The notes under the pieces are model-generated. The model was not told the DNA's origin. It searched no databases and saw only the letters and a program-made list of their open reading frames with translations. A program made the translations under genes and the position numbers. From the NCBI GenBank assembly GCA_031270705.1, contig JAISWW010000108.1, positions 1 to 52,118 on the forward strand: a DNA stretch of 52,118 nucleotides, given 5' to 3'. Source of the DNA: Deltaproteobacteria bacterium. Lineage in GTDB: Bacteria > Desulfobacterota > Desulfarculia > Adiutricales > Adiutricaceae. This document shows positions 3,036 through 32,200 of this stretch, in pieces. The number at the start of each line of letters is the position of its first letter. Within the stretch, counting starts at the first letter, position 1.

Positions 3036-3611
3036 ATGACCATAGCCAAACCTAAAGACGCCAAGCCTGATTGGCGGGATTATCTAGACCGCGCCCTGGA
3101 ATATCACGGTCATCTGTGTAGTGGGCAGATACTGGGGCTACGGGTGGTCTTAAAAGGTTTGGAGCTTTTAGGCCTCGATCCTCTTCAGCCGCAGAGGGAT
3201 TTGGCTCTTTTTATCGAAACCAATCGCTGTTTGGCTGACGCGGCTTTTGTGGTCACCGGCGTTACCTTAGGACGGCGGCGGGTGGCTATTTACAATTTTG
3301 GCAAAGCGGCCATTACTTTTTTGGACTTAAATACCCAAAGAGCTTACCGCGTGGCGGTCAGCTCAGCCATCCACCCTAGTCGCGAGGTCAAAGATCTGGT
3401 GGCCTTTTGGAGTCAATATACCGATGAGGAAATTTTAGTCGTTCAAAAAGTCACGGTGCCTTTAAAACCCGAGGATTTGCCTGGTCGCCCCTTAAAGCGG
3501 ATAACTTGCCCCAAATGTGGGGAAGAAGTCTTGGATGGCCGCGACGTTGTGGTCGAGGGAGTAGCCTTGTGCCGTTCCTGCGCTGGCCAAAGTTACTATC
3601 AGCGCCTTTAA
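3036..3611 (+). CDS. FmdE-family protein with C-terminal zinc-ribbon-like CPKCGE...CRSC
   Basis: EYHGHLCSGQILGLRVVLKGLELLG resembles the FmdE N-terminal motif HGHxCxG. Confidence 0.75.
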   Translation: MTIAKPKDAKPDWRDYLDRALEYHGHLCSGQILGLRVVLKGLELLGLDPLQPQRDLALFIETNRCLADAAFVVTGVTLGRRRVAIYNFGKAAITFLDLNTQRAYRVAVSSAIHPSREVKDLVAFWSQYTDEEILVVQKVTVPLKPEDLPGRPLKRITCPKCGEEVLDGRDVVVEGVALCRSCAGQSYYQRL

Positions 3612-4130: not shown

Positions 4131-4235
4131 TTTGGCCAAAAGCCTTTTTAGGCTTTGGCCAATCTAGTTTTTAGGTTTTTTCGCTTGTTTTTTTGAGATT
4201 AGCTGAAAGACTTGCGGAAAGAAAGGAAGAGGCTT

Positions 4236-6431
4236 ATGCCCATTAAGGAAGTCCAAACCACCTGCGCCTATTGCGGGGCCGGTTGTCAGATCTTATTTAC
4301 GGTCGACCCTGACCAAAATAAGATTCTGGAAGCTCGCCCGGCTCATGGACGCACCAACGAGGGAACGTTGTGTCTGAAAGGACATTACGGGTGGGACTAT
4401 ATAAACGATCCCCAAATCCTCACCAAAAGGCTCAAAAAGCCCCTCATTCGTCGAGGCGGCAAAGGGGCTTCTTTGGAAGAGGCTAGTTGGGACGAGGCCA
4501 TTAATTACGTGGCCACGCGCCTAACGGACATCAAGAAACAACACGGCCCTGACTCAATCATGTGCACTGGCTCGGCTCGAGGGCCAGGCAATGAGGCCAA
4601 CTATATCATGCAGAAATTCGCGCGGGCGGCCATCGGCACCAATAACGTTGACCACTGCGCCCGAATATGACACGCTCCCTCAGTAGCGGGTCTACTGTAC
4701 TCATTAGGATCAGGAGCCATGAGCAATGGCGTTCACGAAATCGAGGACGCTAAGCTTTTATTTGTTTTTGGTTACAACGGGGCTGACTCCCACCCCATCG
4801 TCGCTCGCCGGATTGTGCGGGCCAAACGCAAGGGAGCCCAGATTATCTGCGTGGATCCAAGGCGCATTGAAACCGCTCGGATCGCGGATTTACATCTCCA
4901 GCTAAAAAATGGGTCTAATCTAGCCCTAGTCAACGCCATCGCCCACGTCATTATTGAAGAGGGCCTAACGGACGACAAATTTATCGCCGAGCATTCCCAC
5001 GGCTTTGACGAGTTTAAGGATCTTTGCCAAAAATATTCGCCTGAGGCGGTCAGCGAAATTACCCAAATTCACCCGGACGACATTAGAAAAGCCGCCCGGA
5101 TGTACGCGACCAGCGGTCAATCCATGATCCTTTACGGCATGGGGGTCTGTCAGTTCGCCCAAGCGGTCAACGTGGTCAAGGGTTTAGCCAATCTGGCCAT
5201 CATGACCGGCAATTTTGGCCGGTGGGGCGTGGGCATTGGGCCGGTGCGCGGACAAAATAACGTCCAAGGGGCTTGCGACATGGGGGCTCTCCCCAACGCC
5301 TACCCTGGCTACCAAAATGTCACTGTCCCGGAAATCCAGGCTAAGTTCGAAAAAGCTTGGGGCGTCCCTCTCTCCAATAAGGTCGGCATTCCTTTAACCC
5401 AAGTGCCCCATTACGTTCTCCATGAGCCGCCGGAAAAGAAGATCCGGGCTTATTATGTCTTTGGCGAGGATCCGGCCCAATCGGATCCCGATTTGGCCGA
5501 AGTCCGGGAGTCTTTGGAAAGCTTAGAGCTGGTTATCCTCCAAGACATCTTCATGAACCGCACGGGCCAATACGCCGACGTGGTCTTGCCTTCCACGGGC
5601 TGGAATGAGCATGACGGGGTCTACTCCTGTTGCGACCGCGGATTTCAAAGGATTAGGAAGGTCATTGAGCCGCCCGCTGACGCGGACGTCTTAACCGACT
5701 GGGAGATCATCAGCCGAATTTCCACGGCCATGGGTTATCCCATGAAATACCATAACACCGAAGAGATTTGGAACGAGGTCATCGCCCTCTGCCCAAGCTT
5801 TGTCGGGGCCACTTACGAAAAACTGGAAAAATACGGCAATATCCAGTGGCCCTGCCGCTCAACGGACATGTCCGACCGCGGGACGAGTTTTCTCCACAAA
5901 GATGGGAAATTCGCCAACCCCGATGGGAAAGCCAAGTTCTCTTCCATTGATTGGCAACCGCCCACGGAATTGGAAAACTCCGAGTACCCGCTCATCTTTT
6001 CGACCTTTAGGGAAGTGGGCCATTACTCGGCTAGAACCATGACTGGCAACTGTCGCTTACTGAGAAATCTCGAGGATGAGCCGGGCTGGATCTGGATGCA
6101 TCCGGATCTTTGCCAAGAGTTAGGGGTCAAGCATGGCGAGCTAGTTAAGGCCATCTCCAAGCGCGGCTTCTGCCTGGCTCGGTGTCTGCCCACGGATCGC
6201 GTCAAAAAACAAGCCGTTTACATGAGCTATCAGTGGTGGGTCGGGGCCTGCAACGAGCTGACCATCGCCGCCTTGGATCCCATTTCCAACACGCCGGAGT
6301 ATAAATACTGCGCTTGCCGGGTGGAGAAGATCAAAAACCAGCTCTGGGCCGAGAAGTACGTCCGCGAGGAGTACGCTAAAATTCGCCAGTCCATGGGCAT
6401 TGATAATAAGAAAGGGGGTAAGGCCGCGTGA
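4236..6431 (+). CDS. fdhF: Formate dehydrogenase H-type catalytic subunit, selenoprotein (UGA = Sec at 4668-4670)
   Basis: Two ORFs of the track are one gene: NNVDHCARI-U-HAPSVAGLLYSLGSGAMSNGVHEIEDAKLLFVFGYNGADSHPIVARR aligns with E. coli FdhF NVDCCARV-U-HGPSVAGL...; GQNNVQGACDMGALP and YQWWVGACNELT are conserved; N-terminal CAYCGAGCQ cluster motif. Confidence 0.97.
4668..4697 (+). promoter_or_regulatory. bSECIS element: UGA plus downstream hairpin
   Basis: CAGTAG-CGGGT-CTACTG (4681-4697) starts 10 nt after the UGA; the GGUCU apical portion lines up with the E. coli fdhF SECIS. Confidence 0.88.
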
Positions 6432-14078: not shown

Positions 14079-14175
14079 GGGGATATATGGGTTCTGGTGG
14101 GCTCCTTGGTCTTCAAAACCAATGCTGGCGATTGACCGTCGCCTAGGTGGGTTCGATTCCCACATATTCCCGCCA
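14079..14175 (+). tRNA. selC: tRNA-Sec (anticodon TCA), CCA encoded
   Basis: 8-bp acceptor GGGGATAT/ATATTCCC, 6-bp D-stem GGGTTC-TGGT-GGGCTC with 4-nt loop, anticodon arm TTGGT-CTTCAAA-ACCAA, long variable arm GGCGA-TTGACCG-TCGCC, T-arm GTGGG-TTCGATT-CCCAC, G-CCA 3' end. Confidence 0.96.
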
Positions 14176-20159: not shown

Positions 20160-23100
20160 TTAGAAGTTAAAGCCAAGACCTAAAGCGGCGTTGTGGCTGA
20201 TAAACTTACTAGAGGCGTCTAGATCGTAGTTAACGAAAATATCCACCCGGTCGCTAATATCATATTTGAGCCCAACGCCCACTTGCGCGCTTCCCCGAGC
20301 CGGTTTAATCCCTTCAGGATTCATCCTCCTGTTGTGTTGCCACCCATTGGAGTTTATCAGGCCGTCGCGTAGCGAGCGACCGGGTTTTTGAGCCACAAAG
20401 GTGTAACCAGCCCTAAACTCAGGGGTAATCTTGCCCGACCCAGTCTCAAAAGAGCCATTAAGCTTTAAGAGAATTGGAATCTCCACAATATGATCTGTTT
20501 TCTTGTCGAAATAGTTGGCGGTGGCCTGAGAGTTAACTACCCGCTCAGCGAAGGCGTCTTGCTGAACGCTTATGTATCTCAACCCCACGGAGGGAGTGAA
20601 TTTAAGGTTACCAAAATCAAAGATCTTGCCCACCCGGGCCCCAAACTGCCAAGTATCAATATCAAAGTCGCCGGTTTTATAGCCGCCGTTCCAGGTTAAG
20701 ATTTTGGAGTCATTTTTGGAATGAGAGTAGGCCACATTGGCGTCAAAGAAGAAACCATTGTCTAAAAGATAGCTACCGTAAATCCCGACTCCCGCCGTAT
20801 CCGTATCCACGGTCGAAAAACCGTCATTGCTCTCGATTTTGCCAAAGGAGAAGGAGGTCACGATACCAAAGCGAAGACCTGGGAAACCCTCGGCCCGGCG
20901 ATCGTAACCCAAGCTAAACCCACCCGCGTTGTAATCGTAACCATCAATCCCGTCGCGATCCTTTTGACGGGCCCAAGAACCGAATCCGCCAACCCAAGCC
21001 CGATTAAAGGCGTCCGCCGCGCCAGCCGCTGGAGCCGCCGAGTTTAGGGACTCATGAATTTGATCCAAACGCTTAAAGACCACGCCCTGAACTTTAACCG
21101 TCGTTTCCGCGACGCCTTGGGAGACGCCCAGAATATATTCGCCCGTAATCTCTTTTAAGACTCGATTTAAGACGCCCTTATCGCCAGTCTTAACGGCGTC
21201 GGCAATCCTTTTGTTAACCTGAGCGGCCAAAATGATTAGTTCTGGGCCGCCAAGACCATTTGATATGTCTTTTACAATATGGTCTGATAAGGAGAGAAAC
21301 TCTTTTTGGTTATGAGTGGAAGAATCTAAATCTGTCCCACCCTGAGAGATTATCTGGCCCGCGTCTTTATATCCATTAATATTGATAGCGATTAAACCAG
21401 ATACTGAATTATCAGAGACAATTGTAAATAGATCGCTATTAAAATTTTCTTCTGGATTTAAGTTTAAAGCGCCAGCGCTAGTATCAATTTCAATAATTTT
21501 TGAGCCAAGAGATACTTCATCTGGATTTTTCGCTTCTATACGCGCTACTTCATTTGTTGAATTAATGTTAAGATCTCCAACTATATGAAGAAGTCCTTGG
21601 GCGGTAGAATTAGTATCAAATCTAAAAGTTGAGGCGTTATAAAATGTTACATTGCCTTTGACTTGAAGTTCATGTAAGCCAACGTCTAAGATTCCGCCAA
21701 GTTCTAGGCCTGCGGCGTCAGTAATGGTCAAATTAGCGTCGCTTACAAGATTTATAGAGCTAGGAGAATTTAGAATCAAAGATTTTTGAAATATGATATC
21801 GCCACCGCCAGCCCCAAAATACAGCTGACTATTGTCGACTTCAACGCCTTGGCTGGTAAATATTAACTGATCAGTAGTCGAGTTAAAATAGTGCTCGCCT
21901 CCACCTAAAGTAAATTTATTGGCGGAAATATTTCCGGCGTAAGTTGTCTTTACGCCAGAAATTGATATATTGCCTAGAGTGTTAATATAATTAAATGTGT
22001 TATTGCCACCCGTGACTTTAACGTCGCCGCCAATCAAGTTTAAGTCGCCTTTGAACTCTGTGAGGCCACCAGTAATTGTCAGATTTTGACCCGCGCCCAA
22101 GACTTTAACATTGGCGAATGTATTTTCGCCGCCAGAAATTAAAACTTCTCCTAGCGTTACGCTAAGGTCATTTTGAAACTCTGTGACGCCCCCACTAATC
22201 GCGACGCTGTTATTAACAATGGCTCCGTTCTTAAATAGAGTATCTCCTCCAGTAACGCTTAAATTCCCCAGATCGGCTGTTTGATTGACCGTGTTTTCGC
22301 CACCAGCAATTAATAACTCGCCACTAATATTTACGGTTCCATTGACATAATTTGGAACTGAGCCAGCCTCAAAGACTACTGAGTTATTCGCGCCATTATC
22401 CCCTAAAATTGAGCCAGAAATATTAGCTCCCCTTAAGATTACTCTGTTATGGTTATTATTAGTCGTTGAGCCAGAATAGCCACCGGTGACATTGCCGCTA
22501 ACGTTAACGCCTGACAAAATCACCAGGTTGTTTGAAGCGTTGCCGCTAGAGGAGAAACCGCCATAAACATTTTTCGAGACGTTAACCCCAGACAAAGTTA
22601 CCTGGTTGTTTGAAGCGTTGCCGGAACTGGAGTGACCGCCATAAACATTGGTGACGTTCACCCCAGACAAATTAACCTGGTTGTTGGAAGCGTTTCCTGA
22701 ACCGCCGGAGTAACCGCCATAAACAGAGGAGGCGTTAACCCCAGTCAAATTTACCTTGTTGTTTAAAGCGTCGCCATAACCGGATAAACCGCCATAAACA
22801 TCATACGAGACGTTCACCCCATTCAAAGTTACCTGGTTGTTTGAAACCTCACCTGAACCTTCGGAGCGACCGCCATAAACATAGGAGACGATAACCTCAG
22901 ATAAAGTTACCTGGTTGTTTGAAGCGTTGTAGGCGGCGCTACCGCCATAAACCTTGCCCGTGACGTTAACCCCAGACAAAGTTACCTGGTTGTTTAAAGC
23001 GTGGCCGTTATGGGAGTAACCGCCATAAACATTGTAGGAGACGTTCACCCCAGACAAAGTTACCTGGTTGTTTGAAGCGTCGCCTAAAGCGGTATTTGAC

Positions 23101-24860
23101 CAACCGCCATAAACAGAGGAGACGTTCACCCCAGACAAAGTTACCTGGTTGTTTGAAGCGTTGCCGAAAGCGATATTTGAGCAACCGCCCACAACATCAC
23201 CTAAGACGTTAACCCCAGTCAGATTAACCTGGTTGTTTGAAGCGTTGCCGGGACCGGATAAACCGCCATAAACAGAGGAGACGTTCATCCCAGTCAAAGT
23301 TACCTGGTTGTTTGAAGCGTGGCCGGAACCGGAGCTACCGCCAATAACATAGGAGACGTTCACCCCAGTCAGATTAACCTGGTTGCTGGATGCGTCGCCG
23401 GAATCGGAGTGACCGCCACAAACATAGTCAATTGACTTTAACGTGTTGGAAATCTCAACTATATTATTATTAGCCTGGCCCAGGGTGGCGTAACCACCAT
23501 AGACTTCACCAGTCACATTGCCGCCCGTAATATTAACCAAGTTATTGATCACATTCGCGACTGAGTTAGAGCCCGCGTAACCACCATAAATATTGACCGC
23601 GTCGGCCCCCGAAAAATGGACTACGTTATGGTGGACATTTCCACCTTCAGAATTGGCTCCTGTACTACCACCAAAGATCGCTTCTGTAATATTTCCACCA
23701 GTAACAGTAACATTGTTAGAAGCCACGTCTCCGGTAAAATTATCCAAAGCGTATCCGCCCGCGACTATCTTTGCGGATCCACCTTTATAGGTAACTTTAT
23801 TATCGCTAATTGTTCCATTTGTGTTGTGGCCCGCTTGACCACCGGCCACAACACCATCCTCTGAATGATATTGATTGGGTTGAGAATGATCTCCGATAAA
23901 GCCACCTTCATTATCTATAATTACTTCATTAAATCTTACGCTACCATTTTGAGGGGAACGGCCTGATGACAGGACGCCACCACTTACTTCACTCCGATTA
24001 CCGGTTATATTTGATGAGCCGTTAATTGTCACAGAGTTGTTTTCCGCGTAAACTCTAGCGTTAACATCACCGTCAACGCCATCCGCTTTGCCGCCAATCA
24101 CGTCGCCATCACCGCTATTGCCACTAATATTGCTGTTAGTGAATATAATAGTGTTGTTAGAAGCTGAGGCGCCGACACCAGCCCAAGCGTGTTGACCGAC
24201 TTTAGCGTCAGTTATTTTTACAGTATTGTTAAAGGCTATGCCATTTTGAGAATTGCCACCATAAACGTCCCTATGAACTGTCCCGTTATCTATAATCACC
24301 TGATTATTTTTAACAGTGGCTTCAGCGACATCGGAGAGACCTCCAAAAACAGACCCTTTCAATCCTTCTACATCAGAGCCAATTACAGTTCCATTTTTTA
24401 TAGTTACTATATTATTACTAACATTGCCACCATCTATAGCTGGATTCAAATTGACTCCACCAATAACAGAAATATTTAAATTCGCTGGATTTAATGATGT
24501 TATGGTTATTCTGTTCCCTGAGGCGTTATCGCCTGGGCTAATAAACGCGTTCATGCCACCAGACACGATAATTCCCTCCGTAGCGTTACCTAATTGTTCT
24601 AACGTGCCAGTTGGGACCGAAAATGTAATAGTTAGAGTAGACTCATTAATAAAAAATTCAAAATCGCTATCCGCCGACGCGGGATTTAAGTCGATGGTAT
24701 TATTGATGTATTTGTCTAAAGCCGCTCTGGCCGAACCGACCCAACTAAAAAGAGCTATTACAAAAACCCCAAGCCCTAAAATGAAAGCCCCAGCCTGACC
24801 AACCTTATTAAGGCTAGTCGCTGGAAAGGCCCTTTGCCCCCTCATCCGTTTTTCCTCCAT
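20160..24860 (-). CDS. Large type V autotransporter with repeat-rich passenger
   Basis: N-terminal signal region (AFILGLGVFVIALFSWVGSARAA), repetitive VYGG/NNxV passenger, C-terminal beta-barrel AWVGGFGSWARQ...ALGLGFNF. Confidence 0.92.
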   Translation of the reverse strand: MEEKRMRGQRAFPATSLNKVGQAGAFILGLGVFVIALFSWVGSARAALDKYINNTIDLNPASADSDFEFFINESTLTITFSVPTGTLEQLGNATEGIIVSGGMNAFISPGDNASGNRITITSLNPANLNISVIGGVNLNPAIDGGNVSNNIVTIKNGTVIGSDVEGLKGSVFGGLSDVAEATVKNNQVIIDNGTVHRDVYGGNSQNGIAFNNTVKITDAKVGQHAWAGVGASASNNTIIFTNSNISGNSGDGDVIGGKADGVDGDVNARVYAENNSVTINGSSNITGNRSEVSGGVLSSGRSPQNGSVRFNEVIIDNEGGFIGDHSQPNQYHSEDGVVAGGQAGHNTNGTISDNKVTYKGGSAKIVAGGYALDNFTGDVASNNVTVTGGNITEAIFGGSTGANSEGGNVHHNVVHFSGADAVNIYGGYAGSNSVANVINNLVNITGGNVTGEVYGGYATLGQANNNIVEISNTLKSIDYVCGGHSDSGDASSNQVNLTGVNVSYVIGGSSGSGHASNNQVTLTGMNVSSVYGGLSGPGNASNNQVNLTGVNVLGDVVGGCSNIAFGNASNNQVTLSGVNVSSVYGGWSNTALGDASNNQVTLSGVNVSYNVYGGYSHNGHALNNQVTLSGVNVTGKVYGGSAAYNASNNQVTLSEVIVSYVYGGRSEGSGEVSNNQVTLNGVNVSYDVYGGLSGYGDALNNKVNLTGVNASSVYGGYSGGSGNASNNQVNLSGVNVTNVYGGHSSSGNASNNQVTLSGVNVSKNVYGGFSSSGNASNNLVILSGVNVSGNVTGGYSGSTTNNNHNRVILRGANISGSILGDNGANNSVVFEAGSVPNYVNGTVNISGELLIAGGENTVNQTADLGNLSVTGGDTLFKNGAIVNNSVAISGGVTEFQNDLSVTLGEVLISGGENTFANVKVLGAGQNLTITGGLTEFKGDLNLIGGDVKVTGGNNTFNYINTLGNISISGVKTTYAGNISANKFTLGGGEHYFNSTTDQLIFTSQGVEVDNSQLYFGAGGGDIIFQKSLILNSPSSINLVSDANLTITDAAGLELGGILDVGLHELQVKGNVTFYNASTFRFDTNSTAQGLLHIVGDLNINSTNEVARIEAKNPDEVSLGSKIIEIDTSAGALNLNPEENFNSDLFTIVSDNSVSGLIAININGYKDAGQIISQGGTDLDSSTHNQKEFLSLSDHIVKDISNGLGGPELIILAAQVNKRIADAVKTGDKGVLNRVLKEITGEYILGVSQGVAETTVKVQGVVFKRLDQIHESLNSAAPAAGAADAFNRAWVGGFGSWARQKDRDGIDGYDYNAGGFSLGYDRRAEGFPGLRFGIVTSFSFGKIESNDGFSTVDTDTAGVGIYGSYLLDNGFFFDANVAYSHSKNDSKILTWNGGYKTGDFDIDTWQFGARVGKIFDFGNLKFTPSVGLRYISVQQDAFAERVVNSQATANYFDKKTDHIVEIPILLKLNGSFETGSGKITPEFRAGYTFVAQKPGRSLRDGLINSNGWQHNRRMNPEGIKPARGSAQVGVGLKYDISDRVDIFVNYDLDASSKFISHNAALGLGFNF
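22490..23425 (-). repeat. ~13 tandem passenger repeats (consensus GNASNNQVTLSGVNVSxxVYGGxSxx)
   Basis: Recurring DNA block (a/g)cgttnaccccagacaaagttacctggttgtttgaagcg on the plus strand, spaced ~70-80 bp. Confidence 0.9.
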
Positions 24861-26064: not shown

Positions 26065-27843
26065 TTAGAACAGACCCTTGACTTTGCCAGTCGCGGTATC
26101 CACGTCCACCCGACGATAGGCCGGATCGGAAGCGGTGCCAGGCATCAAGGTGATAGCGCCAGCCACCGGCACCACAAATCCCGCGCCCGCGTAAATCAAG
26201 ACATCGCGGACAAACAGTCTCCAGCCCTTGGGCACGCCCTTGACCTGGGGATTGTCGGAGAGGGAAAGGTGGGTTTTGACCATGCAGAGACCCAACTTGG
26301 AAGTGGCGGGATCTTTTTGGAAACCTTCCAGCTTCTTAGCCGCGTCGGGATTGTAGTCTACGCCATCGGCGCCGTAAACTTGCTTGGCGATGACCTCGAT
26401 CCTATCCTTCAGAGGTTGATCTAGACTATAGAGGAACTTGAAGTCAGGTTTGTCGTTGCAAGCGTCAACAACGGCTTCGGCCAACTCTCTCGCGCCTTCG
26501 CCGCCTTTGAGCCAGTGATCGGAGACCGCGACCCGAGCGCCAGCCGCTTCGGCCATGCTCTTGATCTTCGCGATTTCTTCTTTGGTGTCAGTGACAAAGG
26601 AGTTAATGCAGACGACGGGGCTGATGCCGGAGCTCTTAACCGTCTTAATATGATGAATCAAGTTCGCCACGCCTTTTTCAACTTGACCGACGTTGGGGAT
26701 CTTGTACTCTTCGGGTAGGGGTTTGCCAGGAGCGGGAATGGGCGCGCCACCATGGCATTTAAGGGCCCGCACGGTGGCCACGATAACCGCGGCGTTGGGG
26801 ATGAGGCCCGAGTAACGGCATTTAAGGTTCCAGAACTTCTCAAAACCTATGTCAGCCGCGAAACCAGACTCGGTCACGTGGTAGTCAGCCAGCTTCAGAG
26901 CTAAGCGGTCAGCCACGATGGAGCTTTGGCCAATGGCGATGTTGGCGAAGGGGCCAGCGTGGACGAAGCAGGGTTGACCCTCAAGAGTTTGCAACAGGTT
27001 CGGGTTCAGAGCCTCAACCATCCAGGCGGTCATGGCCCCAGCCACGTCGAGGTCGCTGGTGGTGACGGGGTTGCCCTTCTTGTCGTAAGCCACCACGATT
27101 TTGCCCAGCCGCTCGCGCAGATCTTTTAGATCGGCGGCCACGGCCAAAATAGCCATGATTTCCGAGCTAACCGCGATGCCGAACTTGGACTGCATCAGGT
27201 AGCCATCTTGCTTCCCGCCCAAGCCAATAATAATGTTACGAAGACACTGGGCCGCGAAGTCCATGATGAAGCCGTACTCCACCCTGGTGGGATCCACGTC
27301 CAGCCTCTTTAAGCCGCGTTTGGCCAAAGTGGCGTCATCGTAATTGCGCTCATGCTGCATGCGGGAGTTCAAAGCCACCATGCCCAGGTTGTGGGCGTTC
27401 ATAATGGCGTTGATATCCCCGGTCAAGCCTAGGGAGAAGGGGGTTAGGGGCACGCACTGGCTCATGCCGCCGCCGGCCGCTGAGCCCTTGATATTCATGG
27501 TCGGTCCGCCAGAGGGCTGACGAATAGCCGCGCACACGGTCTTGCCCAGTTTGCCAATGCCCTGGACTAAACCCATGGTGGTGGTCGATTTGCCTTCCCC
27601 TAGGGGGGTTGGGGTGATAGCGGTCACGTCGATGTACTTGCCATCGGGCTTGTTGCTTAAACGACTAAGGGCCCGGGCGTAATCGATCTTGGCGATGTAA
27701 TGACCGTAGGGCAAAACCTCGTCATCGGTTAGGCCGATCTTGGACGAGATGTCCTTGATCTTGAGTAGTTCCTTCTCAGCGGCCTCGGCGATTTCGTAAT
27801 CCTTGGCGCCTTTGGCGGTGTAATCCTGCCAATTCAATGCCAT
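26065..27843 (-). CDS. fhs: Formate--tetrahydrofolate ligase
   Basis: [63 protein letters not shown] at 27843 preceded by GGAGGATC. Confidence 0.97.
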
Positions 27844-28174
27844 AAAAAGATCCTCCATTTTCATTGGATGGTAAGTTCGCCCAACCTGGGGTTCATCAAC
27901 GGTTGGGCGGGATTAAAGCTTTGCCCAGTTGACCACCTTTGGCGAGAGTAGTCAAAGGCTAACCCACAAAAAGCGAGTATTTGGCAAAATATTGTCATTT
28001 TAGCCTAAAAAAATAGGCAAAATTAGACAAAAAAATTAAAACAATTAGGGTTCCCAGGGAACGCCAGATTTTTTGTTTTCCTGATTATACCAGAACTTTT
28101 TCTGGGTCAAAGAGAAAAATGACTCGCGGCCCAAAAAAATATTTTTACCTAAACCAAAGGACTCTCAAAAGCCT

Positions 28175-29020
28175 TTAAGCCGCTCTTTTGGCTTTGGTGT
28201 TATTGGCCCAATAGTAGAACATAGCCACAAACAGGGCGCCACCCACGTAATTGCCTAAAATAACGGGAATTAGATTTTTGATAAACAAAGCGCCCCAAGT
28301 GGCTGTTAAGACCGTGGCGTTGGCCGTGGCGATATAAGTCGGATCCGCGCCAATGAAGAGACCTAATGGCACGAAGGTCATGTTGGCCACGCTGTGTTCC
28401 ATGCCCATGGCCACGAAGGCGGTGATGGGCGGCCAAAGCAAAATGGCTTTCGAAACGCCGTCGGTGCTAGACAGGCTCATGTAAATGGCCAAACAGACTA
28501 GCCAGTTACAAAGAATCCCTCGATAAAAAGCCACGTCCCAGGCTAAGACGCATTTGCCGTTGGCTATGGCCACGGCGTAATTGGCCAATGGTCGGCCCGC
28601 CGCTGAGCCATCCATCAATAAGGTGCCTTTATAAGACAACCAAGCCACCAGAACCGAGCCAATAAAGTTGCCAATGACGCTTAAAATGAGGATTTTAAAG
28701 AACTTGCCCCAGTCGATTTGCTTGTGAGCCAAGGCTCCAGTCATGAACATGCAATCGCCAGTGAAGAGATCCGCCCCGGCCAATAAAACCAACAATAAGC
28801 CCACCGGGAAAACGCCGCCAAAAACCAGACGAACAAAAGTGCCCCAAGTTTCGGCGGGCATCCCCCCAGCCACCTTAATCGCGAAAACCGACCCAAAGCC
28901 AATATAGGCTCCAGCCAAGAGAGCCAAAATCATCTGACTTTTGAGGGTCATTTTCGACTTGGCCACGCCAATGGTGATAGTCGTGTCCATGATTTCAGCC
29001 GAATTTTTCACCACGCTCAT
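28175..29020 (-). CDS. focA: Formate/nitrite transporter family protein (FocA/FdhC-like)
   Basis: ADLFTGDCMFM, RGILCNWLVCLAIYMS, GMEHSVANMTFVPLGLF; ATG at 29020 preceded by GGAGG. Confidence 0.9.
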   Translation of the reverse strand: MSVVKNSAEIMDTTITIGVAKSKMTLKSQMILALLAGAYIGFGSVFAIKVAGGMPAETWGTFVRLVFGGVFPVGLLLVLLAGADLFTGDCMFMTGALAHKQIDWGKFFKILILSVIGNFIGSVLVAWLSYKGTLLMDGSAAGRPLANYAVAIANGKCVLAWDVAFYRGILCNWLVCLAIYMSLSSTDGVSKAILLWPPITAFVAMGMEHSVANMTFVPLGLFIGADPTYIATANATVLTATWGALFIKNLIPVILGNYVGGALFVAMFYYWANNTKAKRAA

Positions 29021-29870
29021 AAAAAACACTATCCTCCATCCCTCCAAATACGCGTTTGGCGCGTTTGGCGGGAAATAATAGAATGTAACTCCAAAGGCTT
29101 GAGCCACCGACGCCCGAAAAAGGGCAGCCAGTATCGGTAGCGACAAGCGACGCGAACGTAACTAAATATTTTTTTAACTAAGCCATCGCCGGGGATCAAA
29201 AATAATAAAAATTTTCGATTAAAGCAATTTGATTTCCTTATAGATAGAACCCATAGGAAAACCTACTGGCTGGAATTACTACATTTTTTTATTTTTAAAT
29301 TGCTAGTTTTTATAACTAAATCACGCGCTAAATATACGTCCAATGCTTTAAATACTTAAAAAAATATAATCTTATAATTTTACTTATAAGATTTATTGAA
29401 GGTATTATAATTATTTTACTACTTATTGAACTATATAAAAATACCAAAAACCCATAATTATATTGAAATTTATTTTGGCCTCCCTGATGACTAATATCGA
29501 ATTTTTCTATTTTAAGCGAAAAAATATTTTAACTTTTTCTCGCCAGACCGCGTTGGCCAGCCAATTTTGGGCTGGTTTGGGGGGTCTTTGGGGGCACAGC
29601 TAGCCTTTTGGGGGCCTTTAGAAGAAGCCTCATGACCATTTTTTTCTGGCCCTGGCCTCTCAAGCTGGCTTAAATCCAGAGTTTACCCCGTCCAAAGACT
29701 ACACATAAAATAGGATTTAAAATGTTTTAGCGACTAGCTTAGGCTGACTCAAAAGACCACGCCAAAACTTTTAAATCCAAAACAATTTAAAATCTAACCT
29801 TGGGCGGATAAATTTTAAATCCCACCACCTAAATGGATATCCGCGCCCAAAAAAATTTTTATTCTCGCTA

Positions 29871-29899
29871 TTTATACAGAGCCCAAAATCATTTGTCAA
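29871..29899 (-). promoter_or_regulatory. Promoter of repeat copy A
   Basis: TTGACA (29899-29894), 17-nt spacer, TATAAA (29876-29871). Confidence 0.65.
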
Positions 29900-30143
29900 G
29901 AAGACCCTCTTCGTTTTTTTGAGTCAAATCAATATTTTTAAAACTAAATTACGCTATTTAATTAAAAATCTTGTAAAATAACGCAAAGTATGCTCATGGC
30001 CCGAAAAATCTTACCCGGCCAATTGAGCGCGGGGGCGATTATTTTATTCGCCTAAGGATTAAGGAGCCCCAAAACCCCAACCATTTGTTTATCTATTGAC
30101 GGCCATCTCGCTGGCTAAGAGGGGCAACTAAGCCCAATAGGCC

Positions 30144-30339
30144 AAAAAAAATCCGACTGGCTCCCAAGCCAACCGGGTTTTTGGCCTCTAAACAAGAGGA
30201 TCTATTAAGTTTTGGCGACTAGGCCAAGCCTTAAACCAGGCCCAAGCCAATAAAATCCAAAAAATGGCCAAAATCCGCCCTTGGGGCGGATAAAGTCCCA
30301 CCACCCCTATGGATATAGCCAACCCAAAATTTTTTTATA
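30144..30339 (-). ncRNA. Candidate small RNA, copy B (~195 nt)
   Basis: TTGACA (30374-30369)-N17-TAGATT (30351-30346); internal hairpin ATCCGCCC-CAA-GGGCGGAT; hairpin CCTCT-TGTTT-AGAGG; terminator CCGGTTGGCT-TGGG-AGCCAGTCGG-ATTTTTTTT at 30176-30144. Confidence 0.65.
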
Positions 30340-30577
30340 CTCAATAATCTACAGATCCCCAAATCATTTGTCAAGAAAAGACTTTTTGTTTTTTTGAGTC
30401 GTATAAATATTTTTAAGCCTAAATTATTATATTTTAATAAAAATCTAGTAAAATTTTGTAAAGTATAGTCATGACCATAAAATCTAGCCCAGCCAATTGA
30501 CTAGGCTTAAAGTAAAAAATTTTTTACCCAAAGGCTCCAACTGGACAAAGAGGGCCGGCTATTAAAACCCTAAGGCC

Positions 30578-30767
30578 AAAAAAAATCCGACTGGCTCCCA
30601 AGCCAACCGAGTTTTGGCCCCTAAACAAGAGGATCTATTAAATATTGGCGACTAGGCCTAAAACCAGGCCCAAGCCAATAAAATCCAAAAAATGGCCAAA
30701 ATCCACCCTTGGGGCGGATAAAGTCCCACCTCCCCTATGGATATAGCCAACCCAAATTTTTTTTATG
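30578..30767 (-). ncRNA. Candidate small RNA, copy C (~190 nt)
   Basis: TTGACA (30802-30797)-N17-TAAAAT (30779-30774); same hairpins with G.U-preserving changes; terminator with 8-nt U-tract at 30610-30578. Confidence 0.65.
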
Positions 30768-31028
30768 CTAGTTATTTTACAGAACCCAAAATCATTTGTC
30801 AAGAAAAGGCTCTTTGTTTTTTTGAGTCTAATCAATATTTTTAAAACTAAATTACGATATTTTATTAAAAATCTAGTAAAATTTAGTAAAGTTTAGTCAT
30901 GGCCCGAAAAATCTAGTCCGGCCAATTGATTAGAGGGGCGATTATTTTTTTCGCTTCAGGACTAGGGAGCTCAAAAAAACCTAAACTATTTGTCTTTTGT
31001 TTTTGACGGCCATCTAGGCCAAAGCCCG

Positions 31029-31065
31029 AAAAAAACCCGGCTGGCTTTAAAGCCAACCGGGTTTT
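31029..31065 (-). terminator. Rho-independent terminator after the nitroreductase pair
   Basis: Minus strand CCCGGTTGGCTT-TA-AAGCCAGCCGGG-TTTTTTT. Confidence 0.85.
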
Positions 31066-31078
31066 CTAATTATTCCCC

Positions 31079-31615
31079 CTAAACAAAGCGGACAATGTCT
31101 TCCAAAGGTTTTCTAAGCTTCGGCCGAGCCTCTTTCTCCGTTTCTGGGTAACCCACGGCCACGATTAGAAAAAATCTTTGATCTTTAGGCAGATCCAAAA
31201 GCTGGGTCAGTTTGGGCCGATCAAAGACGCCTATGATACAAGTCCCCAAACCCAAAGACTCAGCCGCCAAAGTTATGGCGTAGGTGGCCGCCCCCAGATC
31301 GCCCTTGGCCCAATATTGGCTATCCAAAACGCTAGCGATCTTGGGCATTAAAACCGCGCGCTCCTCCAAAACAATGACAAAGGACTTCACATTGGCGAAA
31401 TACTCATTGACCCCAAAATGTTGGACGGTCTTAGCCACTTCTGGGGCGATCTTCGGATCATCGACCACCACGAATTTCCAAGGCTGAGAATTACAGCCCG
31501 AGGGCGTTAGGCGAGCGGCCTCAATTATTTTAACCAATTTTTCCCGCTCCACCGGGCGATCGGAATATTTACGGCAACTACTACGTTTCGCGGCCAATTC
31601 TAAAAAATCAGACAT
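31079..31615 (-). CDS. Nitroreductase family protein (copy 1)
   Basis: SCRKYSDRPVEREKLVKIIEAARLTPSGCNSQPWKFVVV, LGAATYAITLAAESLGLGTCIIG. Confidence 0.9.
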   Translation of the reverse strand: MSDFLELAAKRSSCRKYSDRPVEREKLVKIIEAARLTPSGCNSQPWKFVVVDDPKIAPEVAKTVQHFGVNEYFANVKSFVIVLEERAVLMPKIASVLDSQYWAKGDLGAATYAITLAAESLGLGTCIIGVFDRPKLTQLLDLPKDQRFFLIVAVGYPETEKEARPKLRKPLEDIVRFV

Positions 31616-31663
31616 CTTGCCTTCCTTTTGATCTCCGAGCCAAGGCTCGGGCTAAAAATAGCC

Positions 31664-32200
31664 TTAAACAAAACGAGCGATGGCCTCTAAAGATTTTCGC
31701 TGCTTAGGCCGAGCCTCTTTCTCCGTTTCTGGGTAACCCACGGCCACAACCAGAAAAAACCTTTGACCTTTAGGCAGATCCAAAAGCTGGATCAGTTTGG
31801 GCCGATCAAAGAGCCCGATAATACAAGTCCCTAAACCCAAAGACGCGGCTTCCAGAGTTAAGCCATAAGTCGCCGCCCCCAGATCGCCCTTGGCCCAGTA
31901 TTGGCTATCCAAAAAACAGGCCACCTTGGGCATTAAAGTGGCGTGTTCCTCCAAAATAACGATAAAGGACTTGACATTGGCGAAATACTCATTGACCCCA
32001 AAATGTTGGACAGTTTTGGCCACTTCTGGGACGATTTGGGGATCATCGACCACCACGAATTTCCAGGGCTGGGAATTACAAGCCGAGGGGGTCAAACGCG
32101 CGGCCTCAATCAATTTGACCAGTTTTTCGCGCTCCACGGGGCGATCGGAATATTTGCGGCAACTCTCGCGTTGGGCGACCAATTCAAAAAAATCCGCCAT
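31664..32200 (-). CDS. Nitroreductase family protein (copy 2, tandem paralogue)
   Basis: Same length (178 aa) and highly similar to copy 1 along its full length. Confidence 0.9.
   Translation of the reverse strand: MADFFELVAQRESCRKYSDRPVEREKLVKLIEAARLTPSACNSQPWKFVVVDDPQIVPEVAKTVQHFGVNEYFANVKSFIVILEEHATLMPKVACFLDSQYWAKGDLGAATYGLTLEAASLGLGTCIIGLFDRPKLIQLLDLPKGQRFFLVVAVGYPETEKEARPKQRKSLEAIARFV

Follow-up and report, generated by a model that had tools for sequence, protein, structure and literature searches.

The window, meaning the whole 52,118-nt stretch of DNA that was analysed, is one contig of a 3.1-Mb, 80% complete assembly. The closest relatives of its nitroreductases come from termite-gut 'Deltaproteobacteria' MAGs, and the Adiutricaceae are described as putatively acetogenic (PMC9137090). 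On the minus strand two tandem nitroreductase genes (31079-32200, proteins 84% identical) are followed by three repeated units, termed C, B and A, and then by focA and fhs. Elsewhere in the window are a gene for an autotransporter of 1566 aa, with many repeats of the NASNNQVTLSGVNVS type in tandem (20160-24860, minus strand), a selenocysteine tRNA gene (14079-14171, plus strand) and two formate-dehydrogenase-like open reading frames (4212-4670 and 4719-6431). The break between the latter two (4670-4719) is possibly a candidate selenocysteine UGA.

Architecture of the repeated units

Coordinates of the features are collected in Table 1. Repeat analysis displays three direct, paralogous copies on the minus strand, in the 5′ to 3′ order C, B, A, with start-to-start spacings of 428 nt (C to B) and 475 nt (B to A). 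A search of the 3.1-Mb genome with unit C retrieves B (E=3.5e-88) and A (E=3.9e-13), in agreement with the three tandem minus-strand units of a preliminary description of this DNA. No convincing second locus is found in the genome with this query; the sole other match, of 39 nt (E=0.008), sits inside an apparent coding sequence. Weak DNA matches of 22-39 nt in this genome and in relatives were rejected, most of them after inspection, as due to chance or terminator-like.

Table 1. Features of the nitroreductase-fhs region, in window positions
Feature	Position	Strand	Remarks
Nitroreductase, 3′ copy of tandem pair	31079..31615	-	other copy 31664-32200
Terminator T0, after nitroreductase gene; upstream repeat edge	31031..31065	-	homologous to C and B terminators
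Spacer upstream of promoter C, in repeated unit	30803..31030	-	82% identical to A spacer, 73% to B spacer
Promoter C, TTGACA-17-TAAAAT (11/12)	30774..30802	-	
Body C, predicted ~190-nt transcript	30578..30767	-	terminator stem 30610-30587, then T8
Promoter B, TTGACA-17-TAGATT (10/12)	30346..30374	-	
Body B, predicted ~196-nt transcript	30144..30339	-	terminator stem 30176-30153, then T8
Promoter A, TTGACA-17-TATAAA	29871..29899	-	
Body A, degenerate, 58% identical to C; no recognisable terminator	29660..29864	-	probably a pseudogene, or a leader reading through to focA
focA-type formate/nitrite transporter	28175..29020	-	PF01226; downstream of units, same strand
fhs, formate-tetrahydrofolate ligase	26065..27843	-	PF01268

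All three promoters have TTGACA with exactly 17 nt to the -10 hexamer, as had been described, and the pattern TTGACA-N17-TANNNT occurs 6 times in the window, where 0.24 occurrences are expected. The bodies of B and C, of approximately 190 nt, end as previously noted in intrinsic terminators; these are near-identical, each with a 10-bp stem, a 4-nt TGGG loop and T8. Copy A has no recognisable terminator. Thus a promoter and an intrinsic terminator of its own accompany each of units B and C, and A has the promoter only.

A further terminator, T0, lies directly after the nitroreductase stop codon and matches the terminators of C and B in 28/35 and 29/35 aligned columns, respectively. The duplicated unit is therefore larger than first described and, judged by this alignment, is composed of terminator, spacer, promoter, body and terminator. 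The DNA upstream of the -35 hexamers is indeed repeated, but the repeat reaches further, to T0. The shared regulation that had been proposed from the upstream conservation is not needed, as this DNA simply belongs to the unit that was duplicated.

Divergence of the copies and predicted fold

When C and B are compared, body and terminator are identical at 183/191 positions (96%) and the upstream spacer at 134/183 (73%; Fisher p=3.8e-10). In 25-column steps the identity climbs just past the -10/discriminator and drops right after the U-tract. The pattern is reversed between C and A, with 169/205 identical positions in the spacer (82%) and 109/187 in the body (58%; p=1.4e-7). The divergence is a mosaic: upstream the closest pair is A and C, and in the body it is B and C.

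Of the evidence for a transcript, this pattern of B/C divergence is the strongest. B and C are best read as candidate sRNA genes, because their highly similar block coincides with what is predicted to be transcribed, from +1 to the terminator. A B/C block from approximately +1 to the U-tract is what selection on the transcript would predict, unlike gene conversion acting alone; conversion might likewise have homogenised the two bodies, but the coincidence of the tract ends with the transcript ends would then be fortuitous. Copy A is probably a decayed pseudogene, since its body is only 58% identical to that of C and its terminator is lost, while its spacer stays 82% identical. The simplest reading of the identity pattern is that two transcripts are constrained and the third has decayed. 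The earlier proposal of three tandem copies of an sRNA gene family is plausible for B and C, given the predicted transcript block, and unlikely for A, whose terminator is gone along with most of its body.

The DNA itself shows the repeats, promoters of sigma70 type that are near consensus, and intrinsic terminators; it also shows that B/C identity is concentrated within the predicted transcript and that A has decayed. The explanation that we favour for these features, with moderate confidence, is that B and C are two intact, recently diverged tandem sRNA genes and A a decayed copy, all originating by tandem duplication in one termite-gut Adiutricaceae lineage.

Secondary structure modeling of the terminated transcripts gives -68.6 kcal/mol for C (z -3.0) and -71.3 kcal/mol for B (z -2.8), both relative to dinucleotide shuffles. 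The two predicted folds differ in detail; common to both are the terminator and three hairpins, UCCGCCC-CAA-GGGYGGA, UUGGC...GCCAA and CCUCU-UGUUU-AGRGG. In a consensus fold of B and C the substitutions at paired positions keep the pairing in 3/3 cases (U-G to C-G twice and G-U to A-U once); the remaining six substitutions, like every gap position, fall outside the stems. As the structure was derived from the same two sequences, this compatibility gives mild and partly circular support to the model.

The corresponding gap in related genomes and alternative readings

Rfam matches and homologues in relatives, both proposed as checks in the preliminary description, were searched for. Rfam 15 has no match to the units at the gathering score, and the 6S RNA model (RF00013) has no match in the region even at E<=10. 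A DNA search of 60 related genomes and a covariance model search of 40 gave marginal scores only and no homologue, so that cross-species covariation lends no support to the fold. One 20-bit covariance match, in genome G004, is merely a terminator region downstream of its nitroreductase gene. Promoter-like sites upstream of fhs at two loci, L018 and L022 (TTGACAATGA...), looked homologous and were set aside: no focA is present between the two genes there, and the similarity to the units extends little beyond the promoter consensus. Nor do the units have a match in collections of phages, plasmids and viruses, and with no copies elsewhere in the genome an identity as a mobile or repeat element finds no support. 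As far as searched, the units are by sequence an orphan, lineage-specific family.

Nitroreductase and focA genes flank a gap of 0.9-3.1 kb in five congeners (G001, G002, G003, G005 and G006), and the order nitroreductase-(long gap)-focA-fhs is kept in the five genomes of the genus that have both genes at one locus. None of these five gaps has a detectable homologue of the units. The gap of G003 has one perfect promoter pointing at focA, TTGACA-16-TATAAT. That of G005 has two near-identical TTGACAAATC promoters (TTGACA-16-TAAAAT and TTGACA-16-TAGAAT; a significant pair) in addition to TTGAAA-17-TATAAT. In local alignments of the G003 and G005 promoter regions with the units of the window, no score is clearly above those of shuffles, and the gaps of G002, G006 and G001 have no promoter of at least 11/12. 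Strong promoters directed at focA thus recur, by prediction, in the gaps of some species, with downstream sequence unrelated to the units. Either the gap is the place of a fast-evolving RNA gene, or these would be promoters of focA. Some further details of these loci may be mentioned. The TTGACAAATC...GTAaAATAC promoters of G005 (locus L120) are at 2364-2391 and 3081-3108, 717 nt apart. G003 has a tandem nitroreductase pair in the same place as in the window. In G001 focA is a pseudogene (contig C77, 9615-10212; L122), with 7 stops within the best match, and the neighbouring nitroreductase gene is intact.

The conserved gene order, although focA is broken in G001, and the focA-directed promoters of G003 and G005 would fit a possible but unlikely alternative, in which the units are a duplicated promoter and 5′ leader of focA, A serving as a cis leader into the gene and the transcripts of B and C stopping at attenuator-like terminators. 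The missing terminator of A, and the lack of a strong one ahead of focA, would agree with it. However, three of the gaps have no such promoter, no homology to the units is detectable in the leaders of G003 and G005, approximately 850 nt of AT-rich DNA separate promoter A from focA, and body A, the supposed functional leader, is the least conserved copy.

Neutral tandem duplication, with B and C homogenised by gene conversion and any transcripts functionless, is rather improbable. The region would be prone to duplication, as the adjacent nitroreductase gene is also duplicated, the mosaic of A/C and B/C similarity is what conversion may leave, and the units are not conserved in the relatives searched; but both ends of the converted tract would have to fall at those of the predicted transcript, and both B and C retain near-consensus promoters and 10-bp terminators.

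It was claimed earlier that the units have no convincing open reading frame, and this holds: the bodies have no ATG-started frame, only GTG/TTG frames of at most 45 codons, none of which is common to all three copies. Translation of each unit into a very small, hydrophobic protein from a GTG or TTG start (e.g., VGLYPPQGWILAIFWILLAWAWF in C) is very improbable: on the strand of the transcript C and B do have an open hydrophobic frame, but it has no ATG and no spaced Shine-Dalgarno sequence, its C-terminus is shifted between B and C, it is broken in A, the sole change inside it is W to R, such frames arise by chance in T-rich DNA, and no antisense promoter of quality is present. Type I toxin-antitoxin arrays (ldr/rdl, ibs/sib) consist of tandem repeats, a few hundred bp in length, that carry a tiny hydrophobic frame. 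The units resemble them as tandem repeats with a possible frame of this kind, but differ in having neither start nor Shine-Dalgarno sequence, no conserved frame and no recognised antisense RNA gene; the conserved hydrophobic frame with start and Shine-Dalgarno sequence and the antisense RNA that define such systems are thus not found.

Candidate target, the fhs leader and known systems

The sibling sRNA candidates lie between nitroreductase and the formate operon focA-fhs. Under the favoured explanation, that of two intact sRNA genes and a decayed copy, tandem duplication of the unit (terminator, spacer, promoter, body and terminator) would have produced C, B and A, and would have raised dosage. 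Each unit would be transcribed on its own into a structured RNA of approximately 190 nt with a 3′ U-tract. More tentatively, the RNA might act in trans without Hfq, most likely in that its conserved AGAUCCUCU segment pairs with Shine-Dalgarno regions. The nearest candidate target would be fhs, two genes downstream.

B and C share an unchanged 19-nt stretch ahead of the terminator, AAUAGAUCCUCUUGUUUAG, which A has lost. The AGAUCCUCU segment comprises the 5′ arm of a small hairpin that precedes the terminator, together with its flank, and is predicted to pair with the fhs ribosome-binding site GGAGGAUCU by 9 contiguous pairs, including one G-U. With the 19-nt segment, which was picked after seeing the sequence, the fhs Shine-Dalgarno site comes 5th among 173 sampled gene starts. 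By whole-RNA duplex scores fhs ranks only 100 and 113 of the 173, and neither focA nor fhs is singled out. The genome has 25 occurrences of GAGGATCT near an ATG, the CCUCU part of the pairing segment is itself paired in a short hairpin of the predicted fold, and the segment was chosen post hoc; fhs as a target of AGAUCCUCU is therefore a lead only.

A profile search with positive controls did not find Hfq in 7 genomes of the genus, three of them 93-96% complete, and this removes the usual partner of trans-acting sRNAs. No 6S RNA (RF00013) was found in the 7 genomes. CsrA is encoded in the genus; GGA counts of 5-6 in the units, vs approximately 3 in shuffles, were not convincing for a CsrA sponge. 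That B and C form a lineage-specific, Hfq-independent sRNA pair of a probable acetogenic termite symbiont, tuning the entry of formate into the one-carbon pathway via the ribosome-binding site of fhs, and possibly that of focA, is put forward as speculation of low probability.

Just upstream of the fhs ribosome-binding site is a conserved leader of approximately 120 nt (window 27852-27975, minus strand) with a 3′ hairpin that ends near this site and has the loop core CCGYUGAnGAaCCC. In 6/7 predicted stem pairs a double-sided change is found in at least one of 15 sequences. The model of this leader (R2) has one match in each of 16 genomes from 5 genera of the family and none outside the family; 15 strong matches are directly upstream of fhs, and the 16th is weak (E=5e-5). 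Rfam has no match to the leader at the gathering score in the window, nor at E<=0.5 in those loci and the stretch that were searched more permissively. The leader may be regarded as a candidate cis-regulatory RNA or riboswitch for formate-tetrahydrofolate ligase, and is better supported as a conserved RNA element than the tandem units. The fhsA motif, a weak riboswitch candidate with a terminator hairpin from Leptotrichia and environmental DNA, likewise forms a structured leader ahead of a gene for formate-tetrahydrofolate ligase (PMC11109978); the leader described here, compared with it by description only, differs in having no U-tract and in occurring in Adiutricaceae. A promoter-like block of fhs is also conserved in the genus (GTTCTGNTATAATCAG; window 28090-28120, minus strand), and its poor -35 sequence suggests an activator.

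Tandem sibling sRNAs are exemplified by PrrF1/PrrF2, OmrA/OmrB and AbcR1/AbcR2 (reviewed in PMC4211561). As in these, at least two adjacent, homologous non-coding units are present here, which would be paralogues of one duplicated gene with their own promoter and terminator and with unequal divergence. Unlike them, the units match no Rfam family, Hfq is undetected in the genus, and a third, decayed copy is present. A length of approximately 190 nt and a strong promoter are shared with 6S RNA, which has more than one copy in some bacteria; however, the units are predicted to fold as several hairpins and a terminator with no clear rod and central bubble, and fail the RF00013 covariance model.

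A convincing promoter-terminator sRNA locus can be missing from close relatives, and this limits comparative discovery. If transcribed, the units would represent a young sRNA family during birth and decay, in which two copies are constrained and the third retains its promoter but is losing its body. They adjoin genes of formate uptake and activation, in a symbiont group that is believed to supply its termite host with acetate (PMC9137090).
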